This document shows, in pieces, positions 6,415-48,479 of a stretch of DNA of 64,000 nt. Source of the DNA: Cornus controversa (lineage: Eukaryota > Streptophyta > Magnoliopsida > Cornales > Cornaceae); assembly GCA_026545225.1 (NCBI GenBank), contig CM048845.1:61632033-61696032 (forward strand), written 5' to 3'. The stretch's first letter is position 1, and each line of letters begins with the position of its first letter. The translations under genes and the position numbers were made by a program. The notes under the pieces were generated by a model. That model had not been told where the DNA came from. It saw only the letters and a list, made by a program, of their open reading frames with translations, and did not search any database.

Positions 6415-6419
6415 GTAGT

Positions 6420-7613: not shown

Positions 7614-7626
7614 ATTAGCCCCCTTG
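7614..7626 (-). other. Tat polypurine tract
   Basis: On the minus strand CAAGGGGGCTAAT directly precedes the TGTTGG start of the 3' LTR, the position expected for the plus-strand DNA primer. Confidence 0.8.
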
Positions 7627-7896
7627 TGCGAGGTCCTAGATGTAGGTCCTCGTACACAACTCGGAATGCGAGCTCGAACCCCTTTCTGCAAAAGTATCAT
7701 GTGTAACTATCTCGAGGTGTCCCCTCGACTTCCTCGAAAACTGTAAAGTCGCCGACCTTTCAAATCGTCATTAATGACTGACAATGATTCAGGCCACCTT
7801 TTGGCGCTTCGTATTTCGTGCTTTGCGACGGTTCAACGCCTCGGATTTTGGAGCCTTGCGTCGCTTCGGTGTCCTGTCGATCAAAATTCTCCCTAC

Positions 7897-7903
7897 TATA
7901 AAT
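7897..7903 (+). promoter_or_regulatory. TATA box of the antisense accessory gene
   Basis: TATAAAT followed by GGGGGA lies 117 bp upstream of the ATG at 8020, in the 406-bp stretch between the LTR end and the gene. It is the best promoter candidate for the plus-strand gene, which is transcribed against the retrotransposon. Confidence 0.5.
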
Positions 7904-8019
7904 GGGGGACTTAGAAAATTTTCATTTTCCACATTTCTCTTGCCTTGCATCTCTAAGTTTCCAGAGCAGACTTTGAATTTTTATTGCAATTCCCCTCTGC
8001 TTCCGAACTCATTCAAGAC

Positions 8020-10312: not shown

Positions 10313-10360
<48 letters not shown>

Positions 10361-11445: not shown

Positions 11446-11733
11446 TCTAATGTACTCAGTTTTTTTTTAAGCAATACAAGCTCATTTGTAGACAAACCTT
11501 TGATTTTCAATACAGCAAGATTTCCTTTTACTATTTGTGCATATCCATATTGCTTTCAGTACACGAACCTATTTATGCAACATTCGCTATTCAACTCATG
11601 AGCTCAAAGCACAAACATTGCACTATCATTGGAAGGTACAAAAGTTTACATAACTTCTCTTTTAAAACTCAAAATTCCAACAACAAAAGGAACTAATGCA
11701 CTACATAGATCAAGCCAAGGCAACTTTATCATT
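11446..11733. other. convergent gap between accessory gene and pol
   Basis: 288 bp, AT-rich, holding the 3' ends of two convergent transcription units. No hairpin or gene is recognised. Confidence 0.5.
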
Positions 11734-15387: not shown

Positions 15388-15390
15388 TCA
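15385..15390 (-). other. UGA-CGG stop between gag-pro and pol (same frame)
   Basis: The minus strand reads TCG TGA CGG TGC with gag-pro and pol in one frame (codon starts 17841 and 15246 are both multiples of 3). UGA-CGG is a known leaky stop context in plant virus readthrough. A short hairpin (ATTCC, loop TCCCC, GGAAT) begins about 17 nt downstream. The alternative is a simple CGA-to-TGA mutation. Confidence 0.6.
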
Positions 15391-17841: not shown

Positions 17842-17857
17842 AGTGGCAAAGCTTGCT

Positions 17858-17875
17858 TCCCCAGTGGAGTTGCCA
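17858..17875 (-). other. Tat primer-binding site (tRNA-Arg type)
   Basis: On the minus strand, TTGGCAACTCCACTGGGG begins two bases after the 5' LTR. It resembles TGGCGACTCCGCTGGGG, the tRNA-Arg site known from Ogre/Tat elements, with two or three substitutions. Confidence 0.65.
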
Positions 17876-17877
17876 AT

Positions 17878-19071
17878 TGTTTGCAGTAGGTTCTGTTAAA
17901 CTGAAGTCAAACTTTCCACGATGATGGTTGCCAGAAAGCGGGTCCCGGTGGGAGTCCAAGCTGTCACAGAGGAGCCCACTGTTCTATGTGGATTGTAAGA
18001 AGAGGGGAGGGATTTGATAGGAAAAAGAGGAAATCTGGGGTTGTATAAGGAAAAGGTTCTTTTTGTCCTGTCCCTCTGTCCCGATCCCGGTTCTCTACAT
18101 TTCTCTCATTATTTATAGGCAAAAAGTCTTTCCTCACCAATGGTCGAGGTTTTGCGGTGCTAAATATCTGTGGTAAATATCTGTGGGTCAAGGGTTGAGA
18201 TTATACTTGTCAGAAAAGGGTATTCGCTCACCTCACCTGGTTATCTTCTTTCCTATGTGATAGGCCAATCCATGATGCAAGGTCCTCATCCTAGCTAGAA
18301 ATGAGGTCCGTCACGGATTTAGCGTACCTTGGACTCCAGCCTCCGAACCCAAGCCCTTGGTTCCCATAAGGCAGTGATCCGAGCTCTTACCCCCCATAGG
18401 AGCGCGAAGTGCCACGAGGTTTATCCGTAGGGAGGAGCTCCTCGAAAAAAGAGGTTTATCCGTAGAGAGGAACTCCTCGTAAAAATGGAGGTTGATCCGT
18501 AGAGAGGACCTCCGCGAGGTTTTATCCGTAGAGAGGAGTGCCTCCCCACTTTGGGGGAAATTGATCCGGAGAGAGGATTTCCCGTGATGTTTATCCGTAG
18601 AGAGGAACTCATCACCATCCGAGCTGTATCCAAATGAAAGGATAGAGACTCGTTTGAGGTTTATCCGTAGAGAGGAACTCCTTGCAAGGCTTTATCCGTA
18701 GAGAGGAGTGCCTCCTTGCAAAATGGAGGTTGATCCGTAGAGAGGACCTCCGTGAAGTGTCATTAGCAGAGAACAACTTGCCCAAGAAAAGCAATCACCC
18801 CTCTGAGGCGTGCCCTTCACAATAAGGGAAGGAGCTCGAAGGTAAATTTCTCTTACCGGAGGAGCTCGATTAAAATCCTCTATCCGAAGAGCGGCTTGAT
18901 GGAGACTCTCTCTCCTCGGAGGAGCTTGATTAAAATAGGAGAAAAGTCAAAGTGGGACCGTTGCCACCTGGAATGGCTGAAGGAGCTCGAAATGGAGGAA
19001 AAGTCAAAGTGAGCCCTGCCACGTGGACCCACGTGAAAGACCCTAAATGGCCTGAGTGGCCCATACCAACA
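17878..19071 (-). repeat. Tat 5' LTR
   Basis: Partner of 6420-7613, same length, about a dozen differences by eye. It is followed on the right by the target duplication GTAGT. It would carry the element promoter, but I see no unambiguous TATA box. Confidence 0.93.
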
Positions 19072-22169: not shown

Positions 22170-23480
22170 TTTCATTTGATTTAGTCTAGAAAAATTGTAA
22201 GGTCCTAGTTGATGGGACATATTGTAATTTGATTTTTTTAGTGGATAAGTTATAATTGTTTATAATTGGTTCTATTATGAAATTGTCAAAGGGGGAGATT
22301 CTGACGTATATTTTTGTAATTGGCAATCTTCAGTGTCAAAACTAAACATGATCGAGTTGTAATCTTTGATTTATATTCTTGTCATTGATCATGTAATTAA
22401 AGTCTTAGAGTGAGCATGAAGTTCTACACCAACCATTCAAATGTTCTTCAAAGAATGAAGCTTGAATCTTCGGAAGAAACTATCAATGATCTGAATAAGG
22501 ATTTGATCGATTGAAGTTTCTGAATGGTTTTGATTACTTAAGGACATCGTTAATCAAGTATAAGAGTTACGTAGTCTAGGTAAAGTGATGAGAACATATA
22601 TATTTCAAACCAGGAGGTTCCAACCTTGAAAAATATAGTTTTTGAGCATATTTTCAAATTATTCAAGGTTGAACCGGTCCTGGATTTAAGCTGGACTGGT
22701 CCATGAGGTCTCAGGGCTTGGAATTCTGCAGGTAGAAGCCTGGACCAGTCCAAGGGATAGGCTGGACCGGTCTAAGCCCCCCTGATGGCAGATTTTGGCT
22801 CTGCAGCACTCCTGTTTTAACCGGGACTAAACTCTGAAATTTCCTAAAATGTTGAGACTTGTTTTGAATTAATTTTTAACTTGTTTTACAAGAAAAATTA
22901 TGATTTTTAATCTCTATAAAAATCTCATATAATTTCTCTCTCATTACGCTTTCAATAGACAAGAAATTCATATTCTAAAGAGAGAGAGCTTTGAGATATT
23001 TTCTAGTAGAGAATTTTTTCCTTAATTATTTATTTATATTTATTTGAGAGATCACACATATATACACTATGAGTGATTTAGGCCGTATCTCTCTCTTTGC
23101 TCAATCAACTATTCAAAGACTGTTTCAAAGATTTCTTCTTGATCAAGTTACTGGATTGATTTTTTCTACAACTGTTCGTTGGTGAGGAAGGAGAAGAAGA
23201 TCACACTATAAAAGGGACATAATACTTGCTGAGTGTTCGTGTTCTTTCAGTTACCCTTCTACAAGGATTTTGACGTTAGCCGGGAATCTGTAGCATTCGT
23301 TTACTTTACTGCACTTTATTTATTTACTTGCTGTGTAGGATTACTTAGATTTTTAATTAGACTTAAAATTGGATAATTTAAAAGATTAAGCAGAAAGTGA
23401 GTAAACCTAATACCCCCCTGGTCCCCCCTCTAGGTTTTAAATATAACTTTTGCAGCTGCTTCCGCACCACGCAACTCACA
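22170..23480 (+). mobile_element. 3' end of a copia element: tail, polypurine tract, LTR
   Basis: The LTR at 22302-23480 (1179 bp, TGACG...CTCACA) is a diverged relative of the 1182-bp LTRs at 30214 and 36748, here in plus orientation. It shares TTTGTAATTGGCA near the start, the ACCGGTCC palindromes in the middle (22670-22780) and GCACCACGCAACTCACA at the end. The polypurine tract CAAAGGGGGAGAT at 22287-22299 precedes it, and about 110 bp of 3' internal sequence is left. Upstream lies unrelated gypsy gag; downstream lies LINE sequence. Confidence 0.75.
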
Positions 23481-28030: not shown

Positions 28031-30213
28031 ATTCAAGACTCAATTGGATTGGGAATCGCAAAGTCTTTAGAAATTATGCAAGCAAGATCATCACACATTT
28101 GCATTGAAAATTTATTCCATAACACATGCGGTTGTAGTGGGGAGCAGTGTGTCAAAATAACACAGAACAAACTTCTCAACTGACGTCCATTTTTTATGGT
28201 TGCTGCTTCATTAAGGCATTGCACCCATTCTTCATCGTCTTCCAGAAGTCCCCTTCAACACATACAGATTTGAATGTTTCGTGCAATATATTGTTGACGG
28301 TCTTTAAACATTCAAAGGATCGCGGTCCTTTAACAACAATAAGTAGCAAATGCAAGTAAAATCTCTCACCTTCATTGGGGTTAGCAAAGTACATTCTACC
28401 AATGACAAATCCCCTCTGTCTTTTTGTCCACTTCTTTTCTTGAATGTGCCATACATAATGTTAGGGAAATTCTTGATAAGTAAATGCGTGGGCATCTGCA
28501 TTGGCAGCACAACATGCAAAAAAACCAGTAAGAGTTGACACTATAGCCTTAGCCCGTTCCATGATCTTATGCATTGAGTCAGCTTGATTGTAAACAACTT
28601 GATATTTGTTAGGTAAATGAAGTTGTAATCTCACAACATTTGGAAGTTCCTCGTGCATCAGATTGCCAAATATTCGCCAAGCAGCTTCTGACGGCCCGAT
28701 GTACCTTACATCAAAGTATTGCTGAATCTCATCTACGCTGCCCAAAATCATTGTTGTACGATCATGGCCCTTGTAAATATACTTGTGAATATATTTTACA
28801 CATCTCAATCCCGTATAAACTTCCACATTGATATGATAGTTGAACATTCTAGACAAATACAGATTATATAGCACATCTCTTTTATCAACATCATGTCCCC
28901 TCACAGAATAAACGTGACCATCATTGCGTCGTCTATATAGCGAGTATCCATCTTAGTCCATACTTGTTTCTTCTGAAAATTATTTAGGGTACCTCTTAGT
29001 GCATTTACCATTTCCATACACGATGCGTGTGGATTTCGAGTATCACACGGTCCATGAACCATACAACTTTTGATAGTTTCAAAAACTGTGGGATCTTCAT
29101 TTGGATATGGAAATTCAGATAACACAATTTAATCCACCTGAGCACATGTTCGAATTTTGCTTCGACCTTCAAGGAATATAAGTAAATACATGTGTGGCAA
29201 CCCCTATTTTTGAAATTCAATGGTGAAAACATGGCCAACTTTTTTTCCAAACACCTTCTTATTATCTAACTCCATCATTAGAGCGTGTTGCTTCAATTCA
29301 AAAACACAGGTAACTAAATCAGGATGATCAATGGCCTGTTGATGTGGTAATAAAGCTGAAGTAATTTTATGCCAGTTAGGATTTGCAGTCATTGTAAGGA
29401 AGATATCTGGATGTTGATTGTACCGAGTAATTGCCATTGAATCTTGAAAGATCTCAAACATATGTCTTGGACTACCCCTGAATGAAGAAGGCAAAACTAT
29501 TTGTTGCCTAACTTGATATGGTTCGAATCCATCTTCAAAAATATCTGCTAGACCCTCGTAGAGTTCTCAACGAAGTTTAGGCTGATTTAGCTTGTAGTAC
29601 GTCAGTCTATTTTGCTCAATAGCGGCCCAAACATCTACAATGAACTCCTAAAATAATTTTTGCCTCTTAAAATGGTTGAGTACTCAGACGAACGTTCAAA
29701 CAAATAATAAACATAGAACTGTAACTGGGTAAGTTTATTAGTTATATGTCTCCCATCTAGGATGTTCCACTCTTTTAACTCAGGTTCCCATCTAAGCTCA
29801 CCGTAAAGGAACAACAAAACATAATGCAAAGGCAAATAAGCAGGGTGACATTCACTAACTCGCATCAATTCATTATTTCCTCTCAAGCGCATAACAATAT
29901 CTCTCATTCCCCTGACTTGAATTTCATCTCCTGGTAATATAACTGCAACCTCATTCGTTGTCGGCAGATTATACCTACGTCCATCTGCTGTTGAAGATGG
30001 AGAGTAATGAAGATAGGCAGGTATATTTTGGTCTGCTGAATTCAATTGCTCTAGTATTGCAAATGCTTGATGGAATTTTTTTGAAAATGCGTTATACTGT
30101 AACAAATTTTTTTGAATATCTTCAAGAACATCCCTCTTTAGATGCAAATTTTTATGACTATGAATGTCTAAAGCCGCTTCAGGGTCATAAATGTACAACT
30201 GAGCATAACTTGC
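28031..30213 (-). pseudogene. Helitron Rep (HUH nuclease) region, broken
   Basis: From 30198 downward: YIYDPEAALD and the N-terminal Helitron-like region, then LPSSFRGSPRHMFEIFQDSM and DIFLTMTANPNW (29.3-29.5 kb). The HUH site follows at 29186-29194 and reads His-Met-Tyr instead of His-x-His, with a TAG at 29204-29206 just before it. The catalytic tyrosine region KYIHKYIYKGHDR is at about 28740-28800 with both tyrosines kept. Loss of the second HUH histidine plus stops means the nuclease is dead. The piece is cut at 30213 by the copia insertion and continues at 37935. Confidence 0.88.
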
Positions 30214-31395
30214 TGTGAGTTGCGCAGTACAGAAGCGGTTGTAAAAAGTATTTTAGAACCTAGAGGGGGGTGAATAGGATCACTTGCTCGTTTGCTTAAT
30301 TTTTAATTAATTCAATTTTAAGTCCAATTAATCAAACAATTAAAGCAAGCAAATAAATAACGTGCAAGTAAAGAAAAGAATGCACCAGATATACGTGGAA
30401 ACCCAAGGCGGGAAAAATCTCAGAGGGAGGCAGCACGCCTGAGGGAACCAATTCACTATGATGAAGCGAAGTAGAATAGACTCTGTCTTACTCTCACACC
30501 CCTCTTCACTCTGTCAAGGATCTGATGCGAAACACCTCAGGCTTATGATTGCGACAACACGTCCAACTGCTGCAGACTTCCGGCTAACGTCACCACCCTT
30601 ATAGAAAGGTTGTTGGAAGAACCAAAATACTCAGCAAGTATTTTGTTCCCTTCGTAGTGCAATCTGGTCACCTTTCTTCCTCAACAAGCAAGCAAGCGAA
30701 GAACCTTCAATCCAATGTTCTGATCAGCAAATCGATTTGATGCAGTCTCTGAGCAGCTAATCAGAAGTAGAACACCATCCTAAAAATCACTCATCTAGTA
30801 TGGATGTGTGTTCTTAAAAATATATAAACCCTAATTATTATGTATATACTTTCTCTCTAAAAATAATATTCCAGGGCCTCTTTTGTAGAGAAAATATGAA
30901 TACATATATATAGGCAAGGAAGTCCTAATTCTACTTGGAAAAGAAGTTGAATACCAAAATAGAACTTTCCTAGAAGTTTCAAACCCAATAGGAATCAGAA
31001 TTTCCGTCAAAATCTATTTCCTATTTGGAACAGGCTAAGTGGGACCGGTGCCAAATAAATAGGACCGGTGGGACTTTTTGAAAACCTACAGAAACTAAAC
31101 TGCCGAGAAAAGTTAGACCAATCCTAAATATTGGGGACCGGTCCTACTTTGAAAAACCCTAAAATTTTTATTTAAACCCTGATTTTTCAAAATAGGCTCG
31201 GAACTAAAAAGTGAAGAGTGTCCTCACCATACTTACCTGTACTCTATGGTGTTCATACTGATTTGTCGACTTCCATGCACTTGAGTGTCAGCTCGAAGAT
31301 GTCGATGATCGATACAAAGAATAATCCAAAAATTACAACTCTACCAATCAGGTTTTGATCACCAAAATATGCCAATTACAAATTTATATCTCACA
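30214..31395 (-). repeat. copia 3' LTR
   Basis: 1182 bp. It contains the ACCGGT palindromes at 31041-31070 and 31133-31144 that recur at 33355-33453. The TSD base run CTTGC precedes it. Confidence 0.9.
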
Positions 31396-31408
31396 GTCTC
31401 CCCCTTTG
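31396..31408 (-). other. copia polypurine tract
   Basis: Minus strand CAAAGGGGGAGAC directly before the 3' LTR; the same tract occurs in the plus-strand relative at 22287. Confidence 0.85.
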
Positions 31409-31952
31409 GCAATTTCGTGACAAAACCACCAAGATAATTATAACCTAACCCATTGAAAAAATTAGATTACAATGTTTGCCCAAAAATACATAGAAATAAA
31501 GAACTGATCAACAGAAGCTTCACTTGTGTGTTTAAGATGGTTAGAGTAAAAACCTGTTGTACCTGCACATCTCTTAAACAACACAACCTGTGAAAAACTT
31601 AATAAAGAAATATAATCATATATCAATATCTCCCCTTAATCTGATAAATATATCTCCCCCTTTGTCAAAGAACCTCATCTCACATCCTATGCATATAACA
31701 GTATCATATCTCCCCCTTTTTGGAACAAATTGACAAAGAATTAGTAAAGAGATTTAGATAAACAGAGAAATCATGAAGCACATAGAAGATAATAATGAAA
31801 CAAAAATAATCATCATCACTGATCAAATAAATATCCAAAATATATCAGTTGATGGAATAAATAGAACATAACAAAAATAAATATCTAGACATCAAGGATA
31901 AATCAATCAACAACAGTCTAGAACAAAAGATATTAAGACCTAAAGTCTAAGT

Positions 31953-33044
31953 CTAGTCAGCCTCATCAACAGACTCATCAGAAACAGCAGGGTCAAGCTT
32001 GTCAATCCTAGCATCTAAGCGATCGAACCCTTGCTGAATGAACCTGGGAACTTGGTTCATCTGATTGGCTGTCACGGGTGTGTTAGTCGCAGGAAGTTGG
32101 AAAACTCCTCGACCCCCAGACACAGCCTGTCCAGCTCCTTGACTAAGTTAATAGGCCTTTCTGTCCTTCTCCTTCTTGTTTATCGAGCGAGTAATTGATG
32201 TGGCATCAATCATCCCTTTCAGTTTCTCAATATCAGCTCTCTCTGGAATACGAACCCTAGCATCCCTCAAAATAGCCATCACTATCTGTGGAAAAGGTAA
32301 TGCTGAAGAAGACCTAGAATGTCGAGTGGCTAAGATCATGGTACGCATGATTATTGTGGGAAGATTGATCGGATCTCCTCGAACAATGTGATAACGAATA
32401 TCAGCTCTACTCTTAATCAAATTACCCTTGTGGTCATGAGGATCTAAATTGTATGAGACTATCAAGTTCAAAGCCGAGACCTCATCGGTAAGGTAGAGTG
32501 AAGGCAATCTGTCTACTAGCCGTGGGGCTTCGGGTATGCACAACTCTCTAATCATATCATCCATGCTCGGTCTGTTTGGATCCTCAACTTGATATGGCAA
32601 TACAATGCCATCTTCATTCTCTGCAATACCTAACACATTGGTAATTGTGTCCTTGGTAACCTCAACACGAACGCTATAACATTTAGTCACAAACATTAGG
32701 TCATCCAAGCTTGATGTAATCATATTGCCATAAAAATATCGGACCATGTCGGGCTTTACAATTTCTCTAAGATCACAAAGAGACTCCCAACCATTGTCTT
32801 CAAAGTATTGCACAAAATCCATCTCCCATTTGTGCTTAATTATTGCAAGATTGACTCGCCTTTCAATTCTCATAGCCCGGCACCCTATGATATTCACAAA
32901 ATTATTGAAATTGAATTCATCCTCAAACATGTCTAGGGTGAATACAATTCGATTTTCATCACTGGTAGATGCCTCAGTACGTCCCCTCTTTCGTGCCATA
33001 AGACCCATGATGAATGGGATCAAAAATATAGTCAAGAGTTCCAT
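31953..33044 (-). pseudogene. accessory ORF of the copia element, plant retroelement 'putative transposon protein' family
   Basis: Open from ATG 33044 to a TAA at 32148 (298 residues), then in the same frame for about 64 more codons to TAG 31953; the TAA looks like a CAA-to-TAA change. Met-16 (32999), starting MARKRGR, is an alternative start. Recognisable family blocks, PF20167-like by eye: the basic N-terminus, KHKWEMDFVQYFEDNGWESL, VRYFYGNM, TNVLGI, the PHDHKGNLIKSRADIRYHI segment and ALPFPQIVMAI. The last part (IQQGFDRLDARIDKLD) is heptad-like. The family occurs in the 3' regions of plant LTR elements; its function is unknown. The ORF stands alone between pol-less gag and the polypurine tract. 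Confidence 0.65.
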
Positions 33045-34596
33045 TGAGACTTTTTATTGAACACTTGGTGTGCAAGTGAAAAATCCCCAAATTTCAAATC
33101 AATTTGTTTGCACAATTTCTCCCAAATCCATAATCAATAAACACCAACTCCAATTAGAAAATCCCAATCCTCCAATATCAATCAATCTACAAAGAAATGT
33201 AGAAGAAGAGGTTGCTTGAGTGTTTGAGTGTATGAGAGTGTATGTAGAGCTTGAGAAGAGAAGTAGAGTGTAAGTGTGCATATGAGGACAATAGGCATGT
33301 TAAAGACCAAAGCACGCGCACGCAGATTGTCAAGAATCTGGGCATCCGCTAAGTGCGACCGGTCCTCATATTTGGGGACCGGTCCAACTTCTCTCGGTTC
33401 CTCAGAACCTGCAGAAGTGCGATCAGTGCTCAATAATGGGGATCGGTCCAACTTTGTGAATTATACAAAAATTACACTTTGGACCTCTAATTTACCAAAA
33501 ACACATCTTTTCAATCTGATTTAGCAATTAAGCACATAAAGAGTGAAAAATAAACACAAAATCAAAATAAACATATTTTTGAATTTTTAAAAATTTTTCA
33601 AGAGAAAAATAAAAATAAAACATGAATAATCTCATAAGAATAATCAAAAACATATTTTTCAAAGAATAATATGAGTCCTAAAATTTCTGAAAAATTTCAA
33701 ATATTTATAAATGCTGAATTTTAAAACCCATAATTTATCCATAAAATTCATTCTCAAATCCATGATCAAGACACAACTTCCAACACACAAATATTTATAA
33801 AAATTTAGAAACTCATATAATAAATCCATGTGTGTGTGTGCAATCCAACTTCATCAAAAATTAATGAAATTCCTTTGATCCATCTTCTAAAACATATTGG
33901 ATAATAAGCAAATATAACTACACATGATCAAAAAAAAAATTTCATTAAATTTCATTATTTTTTTTTATTTCTAAGACGGTGGCTTTCACTCTTACGGGCA
34001 GCCAGTTATTTTCCTCAAAACAACTCTTTAATTTTTAAAGATATCTCATTAGAGATTTACATTGTATTGGAAGCTACGAACACATCCCAAAGGTAGCCTT
34101 TTCCATTTGTCTTAGATATTCAGCAAATTTTCTATTTTCTTTTTCTTTTCATGCTGAATAAAAACATATATTTTTTCATTTTTTTTCATTGATCATTTAA
34201 GCTTTCAATGCTACTCATACAATATATTCTAGTCAACTTCACATTAGTTTTCAATCAATTCTCTCAGAGTTGGAGTAGTGCACAAATTATATGGACTCAG
34301 AAGATTTACCTCTAAAAAGAAATAAATACAGCATATTGGTCATCAATGTTTAGATCATAAAATCAAGTACTTTATTCATTTTCAAACTAAGTGTCCCAAT
34401 TATGCATTCACAAATCAAAGTGAAATTAAAAAGAAATATAAAGAAATCACATCATTTCTCAGAAAAATATAATTATCATAATCTCATATGATTATTACTA
34501 AAAATAAACAAAACCTAACCTATAAAAAAATATGGTCCAATGGAAAACAAATAAATGAACATAAGCTCAGTCCATGACCATCAAAGTCCTAATGAC
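33045..34596 (-). other. copia internal non-coding region with LTR-like palindromes
   Basis: No pol sequence is present. At 33355-33453, upstream of the accessory ORF, GCTAAGTGCGACCGGTCC, GGGGACCGGTCCAACTT, ACCTGCAGAA and GGGGATCGGTCCAACTT repeat words of the element's own LTR (31033-31144 and 37566-37680). A CTCATACACTCAAACACTC-type pyrimidine-rich leader follows on the minus strand. Confidence 0.6.
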
Positions 34597-36656
34597 CTAG
34601 TTAGGGAGTTTTGCACCCAAATACCTATTAGGAATAAATCCCACAGTATCAACATGCACAAACTTCTCCAAATCTTCCTTTTTCATCCAGATTGTTTTAA
34701 CATGCAATTTATTAGGAAAGAATTGTGGAGAAACAAAAATATTCTTCTTTTTATTTGAATTCTTTTTACCTTGAGAATTTTTGGGTTTGTTCCAATAATG
34801 TGACTTTTTAGCATGAACCCTATTCTTAGCAAAAGAATTATGCACATGAAAATCAGAATTAGAATGTCTTCTCTTTTTATAGCAATAGTATTGACTATGT
34901 CCAGTCTTACCACAAAAAGAACAATAAAGCATATTGGACACAACTTTAGCATGCACAGACTCGACTTGAGACTTAGGTTTGGGTTCAAACACAATCAAAT
35001 TCTTGGGTTTAACAAAAATAGTTTTTCCCTTAGATGATGACCCAACAAAACCTAATCCAGTCTTATCTCCTATAGGCTTACCAACACTAATCATGCTATC
35101 AAGCTTAATCTGTCCAGAAGTAAAAGCAATTAATTTCTCTTGTGATTTTTTTAATTCAGGCTCAAGAAAATTAATTCTAGCAATAAGAGAATCTCTAGCA
35201 GAAATAGCTTAACTTACCTCGCTTCCGAGAAACTTGACTTTGCCTTGAAGATTTAGAATTTCAGCTTTACTTTCTTCAATCAACTTCACTTGATTTTCAT
35301 TCTTTTTCTTCAAAGTCTCTTTCTCAGATTTTTCTTACTTAAGCTTCTCAGATTTTTTATTATAAGCTTCCAGCAATTTTTCAAAAAGTTCTGGCAGCTT
35401 GCTTTCACATGGTTCTTCATCAGACTGCTCAACTTCTGAATCGTCAGACCCTACTTGACTGAGAGTAGTGTACATCTCTGTTTCACCTACATCAGAAGAA
35501 GAATCATTAGCAATATCACCATTCAATAAAGCAACAAAAGCAAGAGAATCATTCTCAACAGAAGAATCACTATCAGAGTTAGAAGATTCAGACTCAGAAA
35601 TAATAACTTTCATAACTTTCTTGTTTGAAATTTTCTTTGCACTAAAACTATTTTTCTTAGGACATGGACATTGATTAGATGTATGATCTTTACCACCACA
35701 TGTCCAACAAGTAACCTCAATTTCCTTAGAGTCATCTTCTTTCTCTTTCCTTTCCTTACCTTTGAATGATGAGCTTTGATTCCAGAATTAAGAAGGATTT
35801 CCTTTTCTCAAATTTTTACCTTTTTCATGTTCAAGAATCTTTCTAAATTTCCTAGCAAGGAGTGCAACATCATTATCTGAATCATATTCAAACCTTTCAA
35901 TTTTTTCAACTTTAGATTTTGAAAATTTTGAACAATTTGACAAACTTGAAGACTTTGAAGTCTTTGATGTTTTTAAAGCCAAATTTTTTGATTTCTGAAG
36001 CTTTGGATATTTCATCTCAAAAGTTTGAATTGATCAACTAATTCAGCCACCTCCATGGAATCTACATCTCTGCTCTCATCTAAGGCTTCTAACTTAGCTT
36101 GGAACATATCAGGCAATGATCTCATGATTTTTCTAATAATCTGAAATGAAGGAATTTTCTCTCCAAGGTTAGCACTACTTTGAACAATATCATTAAGCCT
36201 AGAATAAAAATCAGAAAATATCTCATCTTCATCCATTCTAATTGTTTCAAATTTAGTAGTAAGCATTTGTAGCTTAGATCTCCTTACCTTGGTGGTACCC
36301 TCATGAGTTACCTGTAAAATATCTCATGCTTCTTTCGAAGTGGAACAAGCAAAAATTCTAGCAAATTCAGAAGGAACAACAGAATTAAATATAGCATATA
36401 AACCCTTGTTGTTATTATTGGCATCTTCATGTTCAGCATTAGACCATGTTGCCTTATCCTTCTCTACAGTCACAACAGCATCACCATCACCAGTGGTAAT
36501 GGTAGGACTTTTATAGCCATTCTCTACAGCCCTCCAAACTCTCTCTCCTTGAGATTTTAAAAAGGCTTTCATGCGAGACTTCCAGAAAGTATAATTTGAA
36601 CCATCAAACAAATGGGTTCGCTGAATCAATCCATCCTCTGTCATACTAGATTCCAT
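34597..36656 (-). pseudogene. copia gag, broken
   Basis: ATG 36656 (MESSMTEDG) leads into the UBN2-type gag domain: LFDGSNYTFWKSRMKAFLKS, DANNNNKGLYAIFNSV. A TGA (TGG-to-TGA) interrupts at about 36327, the frame resumes through TTKFETIRMDEDEIFSDFYS, and there is a one-base shift near 36012. Two zinc knuckles follow: CWTCGGKDHTSNQC (about 35680-35720) and CSFCGKTGHSQYYC (about 34870-34925), separated by a Ser/Asp/Glu-rich and coiled-coil stretch with further stops. It ends GAKLPN at 34597. Gag would package RNA; this copy cannot make it whole. Confidence 0.85.
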
Positions 36657-36735
36657 GATAATTTTTGAAAACAAAAATAAATTTTGATTTTAAAAATACT
36701 TTGCAAGGAACTGCTCACAAATTAGAGAACACTGA

Positions 36736-36745
36736 TCTGATACCA
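36736..36745 (-). other. copia primer-binding site (tRNA-iMet)
   Basis: Minus strand TGGTATCAGA two bases after the 5' LTR, complementary to the 3' end of initiator tRNA-Met, the usual copia primer. Confidence 0.9.
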
Positions 36746-36747
36746 AT

Positions 36748-37929
36748 TGTGAGTTGCGCGGTGCGGAAGCGGTTGTGAAAAGTATTTTAGAACTTAGAGG
36801 GGGGGTGAATAGGATCACTTGCTCGTTTGCTTAATTTTTAATTAATTCAATTTTAAGTCTAATTAATCAAACAATTAAAGCAAGCAAATAAATAAAGTGC
36901 AAGTAAAGAAAGAATGCACCAGATATACGTGGAAACCCAAGGCGGGAAAAACCTCGGAGGGAGGCAGCACGCCTCAGGGAACCAATTCACTATGATGAAG
37001 TGAAGTACAATAGACTCTGTCTCAGTCTCACACCCCTCTTCACTCTGTCAAGGATCTGATGCGGAACACCTCAGGCTTATGATTGCGACAACACGTCCAA
37101 CTGCTGCAGACTTCCGACTAACGTCACCACCCTTACAGAAAGGTTGTTGGAAGAACCAAAATACTCAACAAATATTTTGTTCCCTTCATAGTGCAATCTG
37201 GTCACCTTTCTTCCTCAACAAGCAAGCAAGCGAAGAACCTTCAATCCAATGTTCTGATCAGAAAATCAATTTGATGCAGTCTCTGAGCAGCTAATCAGAA
37301 GTAGAACACCATCCTAAAAATCACTCGTCTAGTATGGATGTGTGTTCTTAAAAATATATAAACCCTAATTATTATGTATATACTTTCTCTCTAAAAATAA
37401 TATTCCAGGGCCTCTTTTGTAGAGAAAATATGAATACATATATATAGGCAAGGAAGTTCTAATTCTACTTGGAAAAGAAGTTGAATACCAAAATAGAACT
37501 TTCCTAGAAGTTTCAAACCCAATAGGAATCAGAATTTCCGTCAAAATCTATTTCCTATTTGGAACAGGCTAAGTGGGACCGATACCAAATAAATAGGACC
37601 GGTGGGACTTTTTGAAAACCTGCAGAAACTAAACTACCGAGAAAAGTTGGACCGGTCCTAAATATTGGGGACCGGTCCTACTTTGAAAAATCGTAAAATT
37701 TTTATTTAAACCCTGGTTTTTTAAAATAGGCTCGGAACTAAAAAGTGCAGAGTGTCCTCACCATACTTACCTGTACTCTATGGTGTTCATACTGATTTGT
37801 CGGCTTCCATGCACTTGAGTGTCAGTTTGAAGATGTCGATGATCGATACAAAGAATAATCCAAAAATTACAACTCGACCAATCAGGTTTTGATCACCAAA
37901 ATATGCCAATTACAAATTTATATCTCACA
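36748..37929 (-). repeat. copia 5' LTR
   Basis: 1182 bp, partner of 30214-31395. GGACCGGTCC palindromes lie at about 37648-37680. Confidence 0.9.
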
Positions 37930-37934
37930 CTTGC

Positions 37935-38590
37935 TTCATGTCCTGATTGGGGTAAAAGCGTCCGTGTACAATGTCGCAATTCTCTATGAATAGTGAATGA
38001 TGTTAGACCCTTGGCACTAAGAACTCTGTCATCCCTTTGAACACCCAGACTTGTAAATGCATTAGCTGCATTATATTCCCAAGTATAACGACGAAACGAT
38101 TTTGATTTATCATCATCACCGTTGTATAATGATGCAAGTTTTTGAGGGGGTGTAAGTAGGGCTGGTAATTAAATCTTTCCTTGCAGACAATATGTTCCAA
38201 AAAGAGGATACCCATAAGATGAGTTTTTCAATTTTTCATCCATCCAGTGTAAGGCTTTACAATAAAGACATGCTACATTCATGTTAGCCAAAGAATGCCG
38301 ACCAAGATTATGTTTGGACCGAACATTGATCGTTGCATTGACACATGTGTTTTCTAATTCATCACTCAGAAATCATTTTGAATGATATTTGATTCATTTA
38401 ATTCCTGATCTAAGAACATACGCTGAGGCTGACGCCGAGGCAAACCAGGAAAAAATCTTGGTTATACCAGAGGGCGTTCATTTCTCTCTCTATCTCTTCA
38501 TAAACGCTAGGCAATTGCAGCTTTTGATGAAGGAGCATGTTCCAAAATTTGCTGATTTAGATTAGTAGTAAAAAACACTTGACTAAGATT
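37935..38590 (-). pseudogene. Helitron Rep N-terminal piece
   Basis: The minus strand is homologous to the plus-strand copy at about 61755-62430 (shared AGAAATCTTAGTCAAG start, ISKF/LNQQ-type text, GERNERP). It lies upstream of 30213 in the same gene, separated by the copia insertion. Multiple stops. The homology ends abruptly at 38590, where Athila-like gag sequence begins. Confidence 0.8.
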
Positions 38591-38591
38591 T

Positions 38592-38810
38592 CTAAAAGTC
38601 CATAAGCAACTCTCCTTGAGGAGGTGGAGGTGGAGGTGGTTGTTCATGATTAAAAGGAGGTAGTCCAGGAGGTTGTCTCTCATTTGGGTCCATGTTTTCG
38701 GTCCTAGGCAATATAGGGTCCCTAGAGGTTCCTCTACGTTGTCTAAGTGTTCTTTCAAGTTCAATATTACACGGAAGCAAAGGAAGTGACAATAACCATC
38801 TACCTAGCAT
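38592..38810 (-). pseudogene. Athila-like gag, N-terminal fragment
   Basis: The frame contains RTLRQRRGTSRDPILPRTEN, then MDPNERQPPGLPPFNHEQ and a run of seven prolines. The proline-rich start placed a few hundred bases after a tRNA-Asp primer site is that of an Athila-type gag. It is cut at the junction with Helitron sequence. The stretch 38811-39070 between it and the primer site is the untranslated leader. Confidence 0.5.
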
Positions 38811-39070
38811 GCATTAATAGTAGAACAACACCTCAATACGCAAAATAAACAATAATATATAAAAAAAATGAATGAACTCAAACCCATTAATTTTAGACTT
38901 TATACTCACAAAGGGTTCCACTTTAATCCTTTTAGATGCCCGCTATGTGGTATACCTAAAATCAAGAAATTTGAGAAATAAGAACAAGATATATACAAAA
39001 AAGAATGAAAGAATTTCTAGCCTAAGAATTAAACCAGATTTAATCTTCCAATGGCGACAATTAAACCGTA

Positions 39071-39089
39071 GTCCCCGGCAACGGCGCCA
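39071..39089 (-). other. primer-binding site (tRNA-Asp)
   Basis: Minus strand TGGCGCCGTTGCCGGGGAC, an exact match to the complement of a plant tRNA-Asp 3' end, 6 nt after the LTR. Confidence 0.92.
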
Positions 39090-39095
39090 AAATTT

Positions 39096-40530
39096 TGATG
39101 TGGCTAAACTCGAGTTATATTGAAAGCTTAATTTTGCCCTTTTTATCAAAATATAATTTAACCACTCGCAAAAGCACGAATCTTTGTAGATAAGGTTCTA
39201 TATAGAGGGTATCGATCCCACGAGGACTAGTCGTAATTGTCTTAAACAAAGATTAATTCCACTTTAATCCTAAAAATAGGGTTTTGAGTTTTTGTTTATA
39301 AAGCTATTGCATGAATGTAAAAACAATAAAATTAAAGAGTTTAAAGTTGGGAGAGAGAACTAGGGGTAGTTTCCACCACTAGCCATTCACATGTTCATAA
39401 GTGTAGCAAGCATGGGATTCATAAATTAAATGCCTAACAATGTCATTAGGCTTGTGGCCTCAATGACATATCAAAAGATCAATGTGTGTGCTAACCTATC
39501 ATAATCCATCTTCAACAAGCATAACTCTTCAACCTAACTAACTACCTAATTACCCTACTCTCTAAGTGAACCTACATTCATCCAAACTACCTTATCTTGG
39601 CATGGTTTATACAAGCAAACACCACACATTCATTTAAACACCATTATCTAGCCATCATTTGCACTTCTTGTAGAATATGCAAATGTTGTGCATTCACATG
39701 AAAGAATCTACTCTAAGACAAGAATAAACTCAACATCAAATGAATATATAAAAGAAGTGTATTAGTGTACATGGTCACTAGGCTAAATAATCAACATTCA
39801 ATTACAAATCCCCAAGTGCTACAAAAATGAACAAGTTTACATGGCTAGGGGCTTCAACCACACCCTAGTAGAAGAGTTAGTTGCTCATGGTTGCCTTGCA
39901 CTCTTCCATTGATGGAGAAGATGAAGCTTCTTGGTCTGGTTCAGCTCCTCTTTCTCCTCTCCCGAAGGTCTCTCCTTGTGTATTCTGATGTGTATGAGAG
40001 ATATGTGAGATATGAGGCTTCCTTGTGCTTTATGGCTCCCTTTTCAACCTTGGGGCCCACCATATATATATATATATCAATATATATATCCATTATATCA
40101 AGAAGGTCCCCAAGGGTCTTGTTCAAGTCAGACAATCCCCCTAAGTCGTGCAAAAAGGGGGATTTTGTTGCAAGTGGGAAAGCAGGTGAGCAAGTGGGCA
40201 AGTGGCTTCTGCAGAATCTCGATCAATCGAGATTGGATCTCGATTGATCGAGATTTCGATCAATCGAAATGAGATCTCGATCAATCGAGATCTCGATCAA
40301 TCGAGATCTCGATTGATCGAGATCAACATCTCGATTGATCGAGATGCCTTGGCTGCAATTTCTAACTTTTCTCTTCAGCTGCAAATGGCCTCAAACTTTG
40401 CTCCTTTTACTACAAGACCTGCAATACATCAAAAACACAAAAATATCGTAAACATATCTCGGTAAACGTAGAAATGGGACTAACATATGCAATAAAGAGG
40501 GTTCAAATGCAAAGAATTGAACACTTATCA
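39096..40530 (-). repeat. Athila-like LTR with palindrome array
   Basis: 1435 bp from TGATAAGTGTTC (40530) to GCCACATCA (39096), defined by the polypurine tract on one side and the primer site on the other, and by the matching copy at 1-762. Positions 40216-40346 hold seven copies of ATCTCGATYRATCGAGAT-type palindromes. Near the 3' end is the GATCGATACCCTCTATATAG block. Confidence 0.85.
40216..40346. repeat. array of seven TCGATYRATCGA palindromes in the LTR
   Basis: Units are ATCTCGATCAATCGAGAT or its other orientation ATCTCGATTGATCGAGAT, one variant with TTTCGAT...CGAAAT; only the central TCAA/TTGA breaks the symmetry. Confidence 0.95.
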
Positions 40531-40543
40531 CACCCCCAAACTT
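40531..40543 (-). other. Athila-like polypurine tract
   Basis: Minus strand AAGTTTGGGGGTG immediately before TGATAAG. A second AAGTTTGGGGGTG lies at about 41630-41645, after the CATTGAGGACAATGTTG stretch typical of this group's 3' region. Confidence 0.75.
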
Positions 40544-42339
40544 ACATATTGCTAGTCCCTTAGCAATGCAATATTACAAAAGTAAAATTAACTATCTTAT
40601 ACAAAAGTTTAATCATGCTCAGTCATCAACTAGATAAAGGGCGATCATCCATTCGTTTCACATTTGGCAAATGCAACAAGTATTACAGAACTATGTGGTC
40701 ATTAGCAAAAATGGACTTTCACAAGCTATAAATAAATGACGGTCCCCACATAATGGCCAATTCGAACAAAAATACAACCTCCAACCCCAAAATCCTCTTT
40801 GAAAAGTGAACATGCATTCTAACGCGTGGCTTTTGTCATATTTGGAGAAGAATAAGAACAAATCTATTTTTAAGAGAAAAACTCATTGAAAACGCTCGAC
40901 ACCGTTGTTCATTATTACAAAACATTCATGATTGCTCATGTGCGGATGACCGTGCAATGCTTAGCTCTTTTTGCTTTCTTGTAAGCCCATGTAGCGGCAT
41001 TGGGCCAATGACTCCCAAACCAATTGGTTTTAGGGCATTACGTGAAGAAACACCCCTCGGACTTAATAACCGAGCTTACAAGGCAATGAGCTTAAGCCAG
41101 CCACCCGCTTATTATTGCTCAACCTTGCACACTTATACGCGAATACTCCCTGCTTTGAGGCATAGAAATCCGGTTTATTGAGTGAGAAGGCTTATTGCAA
41201 ATTTTTCTCTTTTTCTCTCTCTTTTTTTTTTTTACAACAACCGGAAGAACTTATTCTTTAAGTTGTTCAGATAAAAACAGAAATTTACAAAATTCTCCAT
41301 CAGACTTATACCCCACAATTTAAAATGCATGTGTGCGAATTTGTGCAGTTAAGGACAAATTTAGGGCAAGAACTATACGTGCTCATATTTGGACAAAAAT
41401 GTATACCGTTCTAGCCTACTATATAGCTTGCAAAAGTGCGGGTATTTACAATGTTAAAGTTCTTAACTACCTGCTGCATTTACCTCGGACATTTATTCGA
41501 ATGATCTTCCTTTAAAAAGTAAGACATCATAGCAAGCATGCAGAAATATCAAGAAAAGAAACTTGCTCTACAATGACAATCAATATAACGACTGAACATT
41601 GCATGCATATGCAAGTGGTATAGCATACCGCACCCCCAAACTTATATGCAACATTGTCCTCAATGTTTGGACAAGAAAAACAAGGAAAGAAAGTACCGAG
41701 ACTGCAGAATGCGACAAAAATGGTATTCCAACAATAGCGGCCATCCTGCAAATAAGAAAAACCTGCACGGAACACCAACTGGATACCACGAGCATTAAAA
41801 GGAACAAAAAGTATATGAAAAGAATATAATAAAATAATAATGCACAAATGGACAATGCCAAGATCACTGCATATCTAAGGGTCTGAACTGGTGTTTCCCA
41901 ATTGTATAAGAGGTCTATGCGATAAGATATTGATTATCTAGGCACGCTAACGTATAGCATGCAAAGGGGCTGCCTTTCTTTATTAACGTCATACTGCGTT
42001 GAAGCAATCTCAACAGTATTGGGAATTTAAACCAGGCGGTAATAAATGGAAATCATCAACTGAATCGCATATAACAATTAGACAAGTGGTACTACATACA
42101 TAGTCAAAGTATAGAGAGCATTGATATGGGCAGAAAGCAAAAATAAAGACAGGAAAGATAACACAGGGTATAAAAGAAAAGATAACTGTATTCCATATAT
42201 AAAAAAAAATGAGTTCAGTACAAAGCGTACATGCATCTGGAATACTCATAAAAAGAAAAAAAATAGGGCCAACATGGCCTATAGAAAAGCAAAGAAAGAA
42301 AATAATCTAAAATAAAACATAAAAGACAAATAAAAGCAG
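40544..42339 (-). other. Athila-like 3' non-coding region
   Basis: Long untranslated stretch between the accessory ORF and the polypurine tract. It contains the imperfect CCAATTGG-bearing block near 41015-41030 and the second polypurine-like tract. No coding signal. Confidence 0.55.
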
Positions 42340-43563
42340 CTACTCGAGGGCGGGTGGTGGTGGTGGTGGCTCGGTGGGAGTAGAAGTGGAGGTGGAAGCT
42401 CGTCCTGCAAACAGGAACTGCAGGTCCTACCGGAAGGCTCGGAACTCGTCTAAAATCGCCCTCTGACCCTGTGCCAGAGATGAAATGTCCGATCTGATGC
42501 CCTCCAGCTGACTCTGCGTCACCTGGACGTGCTCCTCGAAACCCTGCTGGAGCCGCTCTACGTCAGCTGCCAGGCATGAATAGCCAGTCGACAGGATGTC
42601 ATGCCGCTCTGCAGCAACATCCATCTCCTCCTCCTCCATCTCCTCGTCAGAAGACTCACCCTCTGCAGGCTCACCCTCATCCAACTCCACCGGGGCATCC
42701 ATATCTACATCCTCTGGGGGATCACCCTGGTGGTCCTGTCGCTCTAAGTGTCACCGCACCCTCTCCCACTGAGTAGGTGTGAAGCGGGTGGGCAGTGCCA
42801 ACTGAGTGTCAGTATCACTGACCGGTATACTGGCACGACTGAGAAAAGCTGCGATCAGGAAAAGAAAAGGAAGCCACCAACTCGCTGCTCACCTCATCCT
42901 CTTATTGACAAGGTCGTCCCAGATCTTGAACATCTGCCCCCATATCAGTGACGGGACAGAAAACCACGTGCCCGTGTGGAAAGCATAAAGGCAACGGAGG
43001 AGGTCGCCCCTGCGCTCTGCCACGTGCTGCAAAGGACACGCGTTCTTGATGAGAACGGTGTCCAGGAACCATAATCTGCTAGGGCACATCGATTTGGACG
43101 TGCAGTTGTGACTGGGCATGGTAAACGCCCCACCACACATGTCCATCACGATGGAGAATAGTGTCGAGTCTACTGGAAGCGCGGCCCTGTAAAGCGGTCG
43201 ACCGTCCTGGTCAACCATATCTGGAGGCTGCTGGTGAGGGATGCCGAGCATCTGCGCAATCCGGCTCGCCGTGATAGTGATCGTCGTGGTGCCCACGACC
43301 GTCTCTAATGTGTCCGGCGCTGTGCAGGAGTAGGTCATGCGCTCGTAAAAGACCTACACCAAGCGCTCGTGTGCCACATCAGTGGGAGGCACACATAATC
43401 GATCGAGGCGACGCCGCCTGAGCTCTGCTATAGCCCACGAGCTGTCGGGACGCGTCTCGAACGTTCCCATGTCAAATATCTGCTCTGGGTGAAACTTTTG
43501 AGACCGGAAGGCTCGCCAGGGTACATCTCTAACAGAACCGGGTGCATTCTTCACCCTCGCCAT
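42340..43563 (-). pseudogene. accessory ORF of the Athila-like element (four stop codons)
   Basis: One frame of 408 codons from ATG 43563 (MARVKNAPGSV) to TAG 42340, interrupted by TAG at about 43354, TGA at about 42889, TGA near 42740 and TAG at 42427. Family blocks, PF20167-like by eye: FRSQKFHPEQIFD, VFYERM, TITASRIAQMLGIP, LVNKRMR, ASWWLPFLFLIAAFLSR and the C-terminal coiled coil AAERHDILSTGYSCLAADVE through LDEFRAFR, then a proline tail. All four stops fit C-to-T changes (CAG or CGA), as expected for methylated silent DNA. An apparent 54-nt GT-AG intron around 42839-42892 would also skip one stop, but is shorter than usual plant introns. Function unknown; same family as the ORF at 31953-33044. 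Confidence 0.7.
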
Positions 43564-43577
43564 GATCTCAGAGCAGT

Positions 43578-43965
43578 CTGCACTTTATTCCAAAAATTGT
43601 GTAAATAAAAAGAAAATAAGAGGAATGCTAAACTAAGAATAGAAATAACAGAATAAAAATGAAAATGAGGTCCTAGTCCATGGTGCTGACACATATATTC
43701 AAAAAATTCGATCTCAACGAGACAGCTTGAGCGGATGCAACCGAAATGAAGGGCTGCGGTTGCAAACCGTACATTAAGCATTCGAAGCAAAAAGAATGCA
43801 ATATCTCACTCATATATGCATTTCTACCCCCGAAACTCGCAAAATCTCATTATGAATATCGCAAATGCACCAATCCATCCCAACATCATCTGTCTATGTT
43901 TATTATGCCGTAAAACTACCAAAAATAGCGAGAAAGTACGCAAAAGATAGCCATGCATCACTTAC
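43578..43965 (-). other. probable 5'-UTR intron of the accessory ORF
   Basis: Minus strand donor CTTGAG|GTAAGTG at 43965 and acceptor AAAGTGCAG|ACTGC at 43578, 14 nt before the ATG. The intervening 388 nt are AT-rich. Confidence 0.5.
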
Positions 43966-44200
43966 CTCAAGGTGAAGATGGTGATCGGCACAAAAAGATG
44001 AAGACCCAACCCGCAGCTGCGAAGAGATGAGCGTGCGCATGCTCGCGGTGATCTCGGACTACGGCGAACGGCGGTGGATGATCGAGAATGGTAGATCAAG
44101 TGTGCGACAGTGCTCGGGGAAAGCCTTGGATCACTTAGAGAAGAGAAGGAAGTCGGATGGTCTGAGGAAGAAATGTGAAAATGAAAGGGAAGCCCAACGG

Positions 44201-44208
44201 TTTAAATA
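44201..44208 (-). promoter_or_regulatory. TATA-like box upstream of the accessory ORF
   Basis: Minus strand TATTTAAA, directly downstream of the palindrome array at 44240-44374 and followed by a pyrimidine-rich leader with a good splice donor. Suggests an internal promoter. Confidence 0.45.
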
Positions 44209-44239
44209 AGAATTCGGCTCACGTGCAGGCATCGCGTGC

Positions 44240-44374
44240 ATCTCGATTGATCGAGATGTACATCTCGATCAATCGAGATTTCGATTATCGAAATCCTACT
44301 TCGATCAATCGAGATCAGCTTCGATCAATCAAAATTTTACTTCGATCAATCGAGATTTTACTTCGATCAATCGT
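44240..44374. repeat. second TCGATYRATCGA palindrome array, joined to an LTR-start fragment
   Basis: Seven units like those of the LTR array, partly degenerate. The next 62 bp (44375-44436) match the first bases of the LTR (GTGTTCAATTC, TGCATTTGAACCCTCTTTAT, CATATGTTA). Confidence 0.85.
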
Positions 44375-44436
44375 AGAAACGGGAATAACATATGCAATAA
44401 AGAGGGTTCAAATGCATAGAATTGAACACTTTTCAG

Positions 44437-47220: not shown

Positions 47221-47635
47221 TTTTTCTTGTGTAAAACAAAAACAAAAAAATATATATTTCTCATTATGGTGCCTACTAGTTTTGAACTTGAGACCTCACA
47301 AAGAATTATTACAATGTCATACCATCTCTCTTGCACTACCCTATGTATCACAAATCTTTGAAAAAAATATGACATGCAACTTCAAAAAGTTTTTTTTTTT
47401 TTTTCACATGCAGACCCTTTTGTTTTTTTTTTATTGCAGAAGCTTGGAAACCAACTGACTTAAGGGAAGAAACTCTCAGCCACATAGGTATGCCCAATAC
47501 ATTTTTTTTTTGGTAAAAATATTTCTTGTAGTATGCCTCTATAACATAAATTTGTAGACTAAGATGTGCACTTATGTAACAATCTCAAAGAACATGTGAT
47601 CGCGGTTTGCACAAGTGAATTTGTGTGACTATCTT

Positions 47636-48360
47636 TGAAGTCTCTGACTGTGTGCACAATTGCGCTCTTGTGCACCAGTTTGGAAGGCGTGATTTGGAAG
47701 ACTCCAACTGTGTGCACAATTGCGCTCTTGTGCACCAGTCTGCAAGACGTGATTTGGAAGACTCCAATTGTGTGTACAATTGTGCTCTTGTGCACCAGTC
47801 TGGAAGGCGTGATTTGGAAGACTCCGACTGTGTGTACAATTACGCTTTTGTGCACCAATCTAGAAGCTGTGATTTGGAAAACTCTGACTATGTGTACAAT
47901 TGCGCTCTTGTGCACCAGTCTGGAAGGCGTGATTTGGAAGACTCCGACTATGTGTACAATTGCGCTCTTGTGCACCGGTCTGGAAGGCGTGATTTGGAAG
48001 ACTCCGACTATGTGTACAATTGCGCTCTTATGCACCGGTCTGGAAGGTGTGATTTGGAAGACTCCAACTGTGTGTACAATTGTGCTCTTGTGCACCGGTC
48101 TGGAAGACTTGATTTGGAAGACTCCAACTGTGTGTACAATTGCGCTTTTGTGCACCGATTTGGAAAGTGTTGGAAGGCGTGACTTGGAAGACTATGACTG
48201 TGTTTACAATTGCACTCTTGTGCACCAGTCTGGAATGCATGATTTAGAAGACTCCAACTGTGTGTACAATTGTGCTCTTATGCACCAGTCTGGAAGGCGT
48301 GATTTGGAAGACTCCAACTGTATGTACAATTGCGCCCTTGTGCACCAGTTTGGAAATAAT
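47636..48360. repeat. 60-bp minisatellite, about 12 copies, open in several frames
   Basis: Unit: GATTTGGAAGACTCCAACTG, then TGTGTACAATTGCGCTCTTG, then TGCACCAGTCTGGAAGGCGT. The period of 60 keeps frames in register: 198 codons on the minus strand (20-residue unit with VHKSAIVHTVGVFQITPSR) and 185 and 251 codons on the plus strand. One irregularity of a few bases lies near 48160. On the element's sense (minus) strand a repetitive peptide could be made, but no start context or homology supports it. Confidence 0.9.
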
Positions 48361-48479
48361 GTTTGGCCAAAACCACCACCATTATCTTAAAACCATATTT
48401 CATGTAAGTTTGAGTATAGAGGTAAAATTACACTTTTAATTTCAACCATGTTACCCCAACCTTTTTTGTTTTTTGCCAA

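Follow-up and report, generated by a model that had tools for sequence, protein, structure and literature searches.

Palindromic box arrays in the LTRs and upstream of PF20167-family accessory genes of Sirevirus-type and Athila-like retrotransposons: candidate sites common to two promoters

Palindromic boxes in two retrotransposons of one locus

The 64,000-nucleotide stretch of Cornus controversa DNA analyzed here (C1:61632033-61696032 in a 772-Mb genome; hereafter the window) carries repeats of plant retrotransposon types, among them a Sirevirus-type Ty1/copia element and an Athila-like Ty3/gypsy element, in both of which short palindromic boxes occur in a long terminal repeat (LTR) and again in front of an accessory open reading frame (ORF). 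The copia element, Sire-A, lies on the minus strand at 30214-37929 and has lost pol. Its 5' LTR (36748-37929, minus strand, with TG...CA ends) and 3' LTR (30214-31395, minus strand) are about 1.18 kb long each and 96.5% identical (40 mismatches over 1181 aligned bases), and the target-site duplication CTTGC flanks the element at 30209-30213 and 37930-37934. Boxes of the sequence GACCGGTC are found in the 5' LTR (37571-37683), in the 3' LTR (31037-31149, as pairs 20 bp apart) and in an internal block before the accessory ORF (33351-33454); the neighboring words GCTAAGTG and ACCTGCAGAA accompany them in the LTRs and in the block, being one base off in the 3' LTR, which confirms what an initial annotation of this stretch had described for the copia element. 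The internal block is collinear with the U3 region of the LTR over about 150 bp, with local alignment scores of 88 (3' LTR) and 72 (5' LTR), while 300 dinucleotide shuffles, run against the 5' LTR only, reached a maximum of 54. Between the block and the ORF lies a CT/CA-rich leader (33045-33350, minus strand), a putative internal promoter that is about 300 bp long in an alignment of 21 Sire-A copies. The ORF itself (32148-33044, minus strand) encodes 298 amino acids (aa) and matches PF20167 (Transposase_32; Pfam, 5e-24), and its similarity to a stop-free genomic copy (L053) extends to 31959.

The Athila-like LTR (39096-40531, minus strand) has a polypurine tract (PPT) at its start and a sequence resembling a primer-binding site (PBS), TGGCGCCGTTGCCGGGGA, past its end, which we take to be of the Athila type. 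By eye, PPT and PBS-like site flank this LTR on opposite sides (39078-40545), so that this may be a middle LTR, in an element that is tandem or recombined; a partial Athila LTR, 92% identical to it, lies at 8-762. The LTR boxes are of the type TCGAT-YR-ATCGA, and all seven that had been annotated (ATCTCGAT-YR-ATCGAGAT, 40216-40345) are present. The internal array upstream of the accessory ORF (44240-44374) had also been credited with seven boxes, a number that is reached only at two mismatches; four are exact and six have no more than one mismatch. The four box clusters hold 6, 7, 3 and 3 boxes, compared with no more than one in the best counting window for the matching box kind in 200 local shuffles per neighborhood. 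About 40 bp past the last internal box stands a TATA-like element, TATTTAAA (44201-44208, minus strand), which is followed by the accessory reading frame (42397-43563, minus strand), stop-broken in the window copy with an open piece at 42889-43338.

Joined to the Athila array are 67 bp of LTR start (44369-44435, minus strand, 93% identical to the LTR), initially annotated as 62 bp. Three genomic Athila copies (L044-L046) have, in this order, the end of the pol frame, about 180 bp of intervening sequence, 13-14 boxes, the TATTTAAA element (in L044 and L046 again about 40 bp past the last box) and the ORF; between the end of pol and the ORF, they have no LTR start and no LTR match beside the boxes themselves. 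The LTR segment, real as it is in the window, is therefore best taken as a junction of the window copy that stands outside the family layout. By eye, L044 and L046 look pol-deleted themselves.

The Athila lineage is indicated by the PBS and PPT and, through the genomic copies, by a Ty3/gypsy integrase before the 3' accessory ORF: an integrase end lies upstream of the array in L044-L046 (by eye), with the piece in L045 matching a Ty3/gypsy integrase region of the window, and it is absent before the array of the window Athila copy. In Sire-A, the PBS TGGTATCAGA, which we take to be of the iMet type, follows the 5' LTR. The PPT, AAAGGGGGAGA, adjoins the LTR and has further copies upstream (31396-31720, minus strand; read from the sequence), and palindromes of the GGACCGGTCC type occur both in U3 and before the ENV-like gene. 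The PBS, the multiple PPTs and this placement of the palindromes agree with Sirevirus marks, the PPTs being described as such in PMC2829016. A gag region with a CCHC knuckle, spotted by eye, and an interrupted frame occupies 34597-36654 (minus strand). No SIRE-type integrase, reverse transcriptase (RT) or RNase H (RH) was found in the window copy: neither integrase nor RT lies between gag and the box block, and tblastn with Sirevirus RT and RH pieces over the whole window gave no match at an E value of <=0.001. The assignment of Sire-A to the SIRE lineage rests on these noncoding marks and on the PF20167-bearing genomic loci L041 and L042, which have RT/RH-like frames (by eye). A PIF1-helicase (Helitron-like) sequence lies near the Sire-A element.

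Cognate boxes and their spacing in four element families

The comparison was made within one genome and comprised the window (L001), loci picked by the Sire-A box block itself (L002-L040), in which conservation of the block is partly built in, and loci picked by the ORF (L041-L053). The latter include nine places from a PF20167 search (L041-L043, L047-L051 and L053) and, for Athila, three upstream places (L044-L046) and one ORF (L052, the same locus as L044); in L043, L047 and L048, whose frames are interrupted or truncated close to the start, the upstream limit was set by eye. When the best 150 of 4447 candidates from the PF20167 search were scored, all 150 exceeded the Pfam cut-off, and all of the best 150 of 5133 candidates from the Athila ORF search had at least 90% identity. 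Among the matches listed (40 and 150 places), six box/PF20167 pairs, the one in the window included, are 1078-1099 bp apart.

Two further families, Sire-B and Sire-C, have the same layout with other boxes. In Sire-B (L042), RT and RNase H-like frames are followed by four TTTCAG-N4-CTGAAA boxes, a TATATATA element and a 418-aa PF20167 ORF; beside these four boxes between pol and ORF there are eight in the LTR and none in pol or from the ORF to the PPT, and a TATA box stands past each array, in the LTR and internally (by eye). In Sire-C (L041), AAGTCGACTT boxes precede a 432-aa PF20167 ORF (11 upstream and none in pol or from the ORF to the PPT, at one mismatch), and two are present in the available part of the LTR. 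The two elements are 88% identical in pol (973 bases), whereas identity of the accessory proteins is only 40% and the boxes are of different types. Four patterns were counted at no more than one mismatch in 14 regions preceding accessory ORFs and in five LTR stretches (two of them one element's pair and two partial), and cognate boxes were found in 13 of the former and in all five of the latter. The shared layout with differing motifs, initially proposed for two elements, thus holds for four families with four box types, and, apart from one upstream region discussed below, the box type in the LTR matches the type before the ORF. The sole noncognate match among the 19 regions is one C-type box in L042, while four control regions gave 0, 1, 1 and 1 matches, all of the short A pattern. 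As the patterns were picked after the sequences had been viewed, this matrix is descriptive and not a blind test. L043 has only one cognate box at no more than one mismatch and five at two mismatches. A test of 8-mers shared between each upstream region and its own LTR rose above the shuffle maximum for Sire-B, for three Athila rows and, with one of the two LTRs, for Sire-A; the box counts are clearer than this test, though on post hoc patterns.

Can the internal arrays be passive LTR copies caught by rearrangement, as the segment at 44369-44435 first suggests? The LTR start that abuts the window Athila array and the collinearity of the Sire-A block with U3 would agree with such an origin. On the other hand, the array stands without the LTR start in three other Athila copies, only the boxes are visibly common with the LTR in Sire-B and Sire-C (by eye), and the layout recurs in four families, and we regard a passive origin as very improbable. 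A candidate internal promoter, as the initial annotation had it, is supported by the cognate boxes, by the TATA-like elements in Athila and Sire-B and by the Sire-A leader, while its derivation from the LTR is not borne out for Athila, given the structure of L044-L046. A bacterial-type promoter scan found nothing and is irrelevant to these elements.

Measured center to center, boxes stand 20 bp apart in Sire-A pairs, 22 bp in Sire-B, mostly 22 bp in Sire-C and mostly 20-22 bp, with some at 16 bp, in Athila. Altogether, 62 of 91 neighboring spacings (<=60 bp) are 20-22 bp, the counts at two mismatches including overlapping half-sites (8-bp spacings), and such spacings occur in each of 15 arrays. 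Because the spacings of a single array depend on each other, and because three of the Athila arrays are close copies of each other, it is the agreement among families that counts as evidence. That unrelated boxes keep a common usual spacing, about two turns of the helix, suggests a single kind of protein, presumably bound on one face of the DNA. Boxes of the GGACCGGTCC type also form two pairs, 22 bp apart, in the LTR of another Sirevirus family at 22307-23480, before which the window gave no PF20167 match.

The edge of the Sire-A block is also a boundary of sequence conservation. In 20 further genomic copies, all picked by the block, identity is mostly 85-97% upstream of it (some copies diverge there) and about 96-98% within it; in 16 of the 20 it is 43-59% over the first 100 bp 3' of the block, and the break begins no more than about 15 bp past the last box. 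The ORF of one copy (L030) has a synonymous divergence of about 1.0-1.2 from the other copies, yet its block is 97% identical. Leader and ORF resemble a cassette whose junction is the edge of the boxes. Just 3' of the block, L021-L040 show several different leader/ORF cassettes on one upstream backbone, with a sharp common edge that suggests repeated exchange at the boxes. An abrupt drop in identity is what a recurrent exchange point is expected to leave, and it thus speaks for boxes with a structural or silencing-related part and no activating role, either as RNA-folding palindromes that feed small RNAs or as points of recombination or template switching; work in maize has reportedly dealt with Sirevirus LTR palindromes and small RNAs. 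Arguing against this are the regular spacing of the boxes, the TATA-like elements that the arrays adjoin in Sire-B (LTR and internal) and Athila (internal) and, in PMC2829016, the finding of linker boxes in all 9 box-carrying Sireviruses with ENV and in none of the 4 without it; we judge a structural role of this kind to be quite improbable.

Accessory ORFs and their predicted proteins

The initial assignment of the two accessory ORFs to one PF20167-like family is upheld, with the Athila member probably being a remote one. The Pfam gathering cut-off for PF20167 is 45 bits, and the products of the window Sire-A (85.6 bits), L053 (91.7 bits), Sire-B L042 (89.8 bits) and Sire-C L049 (94.3 bits) all lie above it. 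The open piece of the window Athila frame reaches an E value of only 0.068; the stop-free Athila copy L052 matches the whole profile at 6.8e-6 with 26.5 bits, which is below the cut-off. A homologous protein search with the Sire-A ORF gave 0 of 547 candidates at an E value of <=0.001, and a sequence search of the PDB found no relative (best E value, 0.3). The ratio of nonsynonymous to synonymous substitution rates is 0.09-0.38 for the Sire-A ORF (36 pairs, 9 copies) and 0.17, 0.25 and 0.33 for the Athila ORF (three comparisons); the accessory ORFs of both are under purifying selection.

The predicted proteins bear on a further explanation, by which the ORF encodes an ENV-like or particle-related protein without a role at the DNA and the boxes merely drive its expression. 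The literature names such genes ENV-like, and the N terminus of the Sire-A product is hydrophobic, as that of an ENV-like protein might be. However, the products of Sire-B, Sire-C and Athila start with basic stretches and end in heptad-like tails (by eye), the AlphaFold2 model of the Athila product has one long C-terminal helix (predicted local distance difference test score [pLDDT] of 70-80 over the best 30 residues), and a nuclear signal is predicted for an Athila accessory protein of sunflower that contains PF20167 (PMC11728184), so that we find a protein with no function at the DNA improbable. The C-terminal Athila helix could fit a coiled-coil dimer able to read a dyad. Structure prediction, initially suggested as a check for DNA-binding folds, yielded two AlphaFold2 models (11-row alignments) with mean pLDDT values of 44.6 and 45.3, too poor for the fold to be judged.

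Candidate readers of the boxes and relation to known systems

The layout of the copia half is already known. Bousios et al. 2010 (PMC2829016) described palindromic repeated motifs (RM boxes) in 13 Sireviruses, Ty1/copia elements only, which are placed, as here, in the LTR upstream of the TATA box and again upstream of an ENV-like gene; 77 of 79 linker copies lie upstream of ENV, and an internal promoter for that gene was proposed and given some support. A CGG-CCG core is common to all but one of the published motifs; in the present elements, types B, C and D are without it, and type A (ACCGGT), that of Sire-A, has it only across the box pair. Beyond that work, the present data add the same layout in an Athila (Ty3/gypsy) family, the usual spacing of 20-22 bp and the link to PF20167. 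No report of the Athila half, that is, box arrays before an accessory gene, was found in a search of the open-access literature by title or abstract start, subscription papers lying outside its scope.

The comparison with the VANC proteins of Arabidopsis VANDAL elements, drawn in the initial annotation, stands as a likeness of logic only. In both cases an accessory protein goes together with short repeated motifs in the noncoding DNA of the same element, and the motif type changes between related families; we also list as a likeness that VANC is a fast-evolving accessory protein of a transposon (PMC5735166). In contrast to VANC, for which binding and demethylation are proven (PMC5735166), box binding here is putative; VANDALs are DNA transposons and the present elements are retrotransposons, and the word palindrome does not occur in the available text of PMC5735166 on the VANC motifs. 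VANC carries DUF1985 and DUF287 (PMC5735166), and a Pfam scan up to an E value of 10, whose program filters drop most weak matches, listed neither of them, nor the plant mobile domain PF10536, in the four ORF products; a genome search for DUF1985 gave 0 matches, as did its positive controls. By analogy, the accessory proteins may act against silencing as VANC does.

Two other systems share single features. By its title, the report of Gomez-Orte 2013 (cited in PMC11963269) places the accessory gene of the retrotransposon Grande in the 3' internal region, as here, and ascribes to it a nuclear protein and its own promoter; unlike here, the gene is antisense (PMC7264820). The plant mobile domain proteins MAIN/MAIL1 and the 'DOWN' promoter motif (PMC7156037 and PMC5418596) likewise tie a transposon-related domain protein to a promoter DNA motif, but comparison of PF20167 with one plant mobile domain protein of the window by hhalign gave a nonsignificant probability of about 0.1%, on shallow profiles. 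A Ty3/gypsy element of the window (6419-19071; LTRs at 6419-7613 and 17877-19071, 98.9% identical; gag-pol on the minus strand) contains an antisense plant mobile domain ORF (7984-9876; PF10536, 1.4e-32). Nine tandem GAGGTTTATCCGTAGAGAGGA-like units in its LTR lie about 700-1000 bp upstream of that ORF, with TATAAA nearer to the ORF (by eye), and one LTR array could serve both promoters there. Units of about 60 bp are arrayed in tandem at 47574-48423 of the window, where both strands have open frames.

The observed boxes, their cognate pairing and spacing, the TATA-like elements of two families and the selection on the ORFs can be brought together in one mechanism, in which we infer that the promoters are active, that a protein binds the boxes and which protein this is. 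In each family, one short dyad-symmetric box type would activate, from upstream, two promoters of the same element: that of the LTR and a distinct internal one after pol, which would give the mRNA for the PF20167-family accessory protein. The boxes would be read by a dimeric protein at intervals of about two turns (20-22 bp). For this reader, the accessory protein is the likeliest candidate, preferred to a host factor; it would serve its own family, in cis as well as in trans, by activation or by counteracting silencing. Judged from the sequences, the boxes are most likely activating sites common to the LTR promoter and the internal ORF promoter, and the two-promoter model with the accessory protein as the likeliest reader is probably right; that the binder is the element's own product we propose more tentatively, at somewhat less than even chances. 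The accessory protein is a candidate because the same protein family is found in four element families and differs among them as the boxes do, with one usual geometry. The model has a precedent in the linker boxes of published box-carrying Sireviruses, which go with the presence of ENV (PMC2829016).

Besides the hydrophobic start of the Sire-A product, several points weigh against this model: (i) L051, a Sire-A locus, keeps a 363-aa stop-free ORF and is missing the box block, so that an ORF retained without upstream palindromes, which the initial annotation had named as grounds for rejection, occurs in 1 of the 14 regions; (ii) the shared-8-mer test did not pick out the own LTR for Sire-C; (iii) the window Sire-A leader (33045-33350) is without a canonical TATA box; (iv) 11 of the 20 box-picked Sire-A copies are without a tblastn-detectable ORF (1e-5), some showing a decayed relic (by eye), and their block is still 96-98% identical; (v) no DNA-binding fold was found by Foldseek, which was run with the first of the poor models only and gave 0 matches at an E value of <=0.001; and (vi) as box type and ORF are inherited on one molecule, their matching alone is no proof of interaction. 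The main rival to the accessory protein as reader is a host transcription factor, with both promoters answering to the same host activator and the families tuned to different factors. It gains from the block being kept in copies without a detectable ORF, from published Sireviruses without ENV that still have LTR boxes, which is a further point against our model, and from a comparison with a plant cis-element database that returned mainly stress-related sites (PMC2829016). Nevertheless, one protein family accounts more readily than four families of host factors for four unrelated box sequences with one usual spacing of 20-22 bp, and the cognate arrays sit before the accessory ORF; we consider host factors as readers rather unlikely, and the accessory protein remains our preferred candidate.

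Published work still describes the role of the accessory or ENV-like genes, in Sireviruses as in Athila, as unknown or speculative, though the ORFs are very numerous in this genome, and the question of whether Athila-encoded ORFs modulate methylation of their elements was raised in 2026 and left open (PMC12844716). The matched arrays of four families permit a direct and cheap test of each protein on its own boxes. Should each protein bind its own boxes, this would indicate a way in which silencing may be evaded in trans by large families of retrotransposons, and the accessory proteins would be natural plant DNA-binding proteins with changeable targets.

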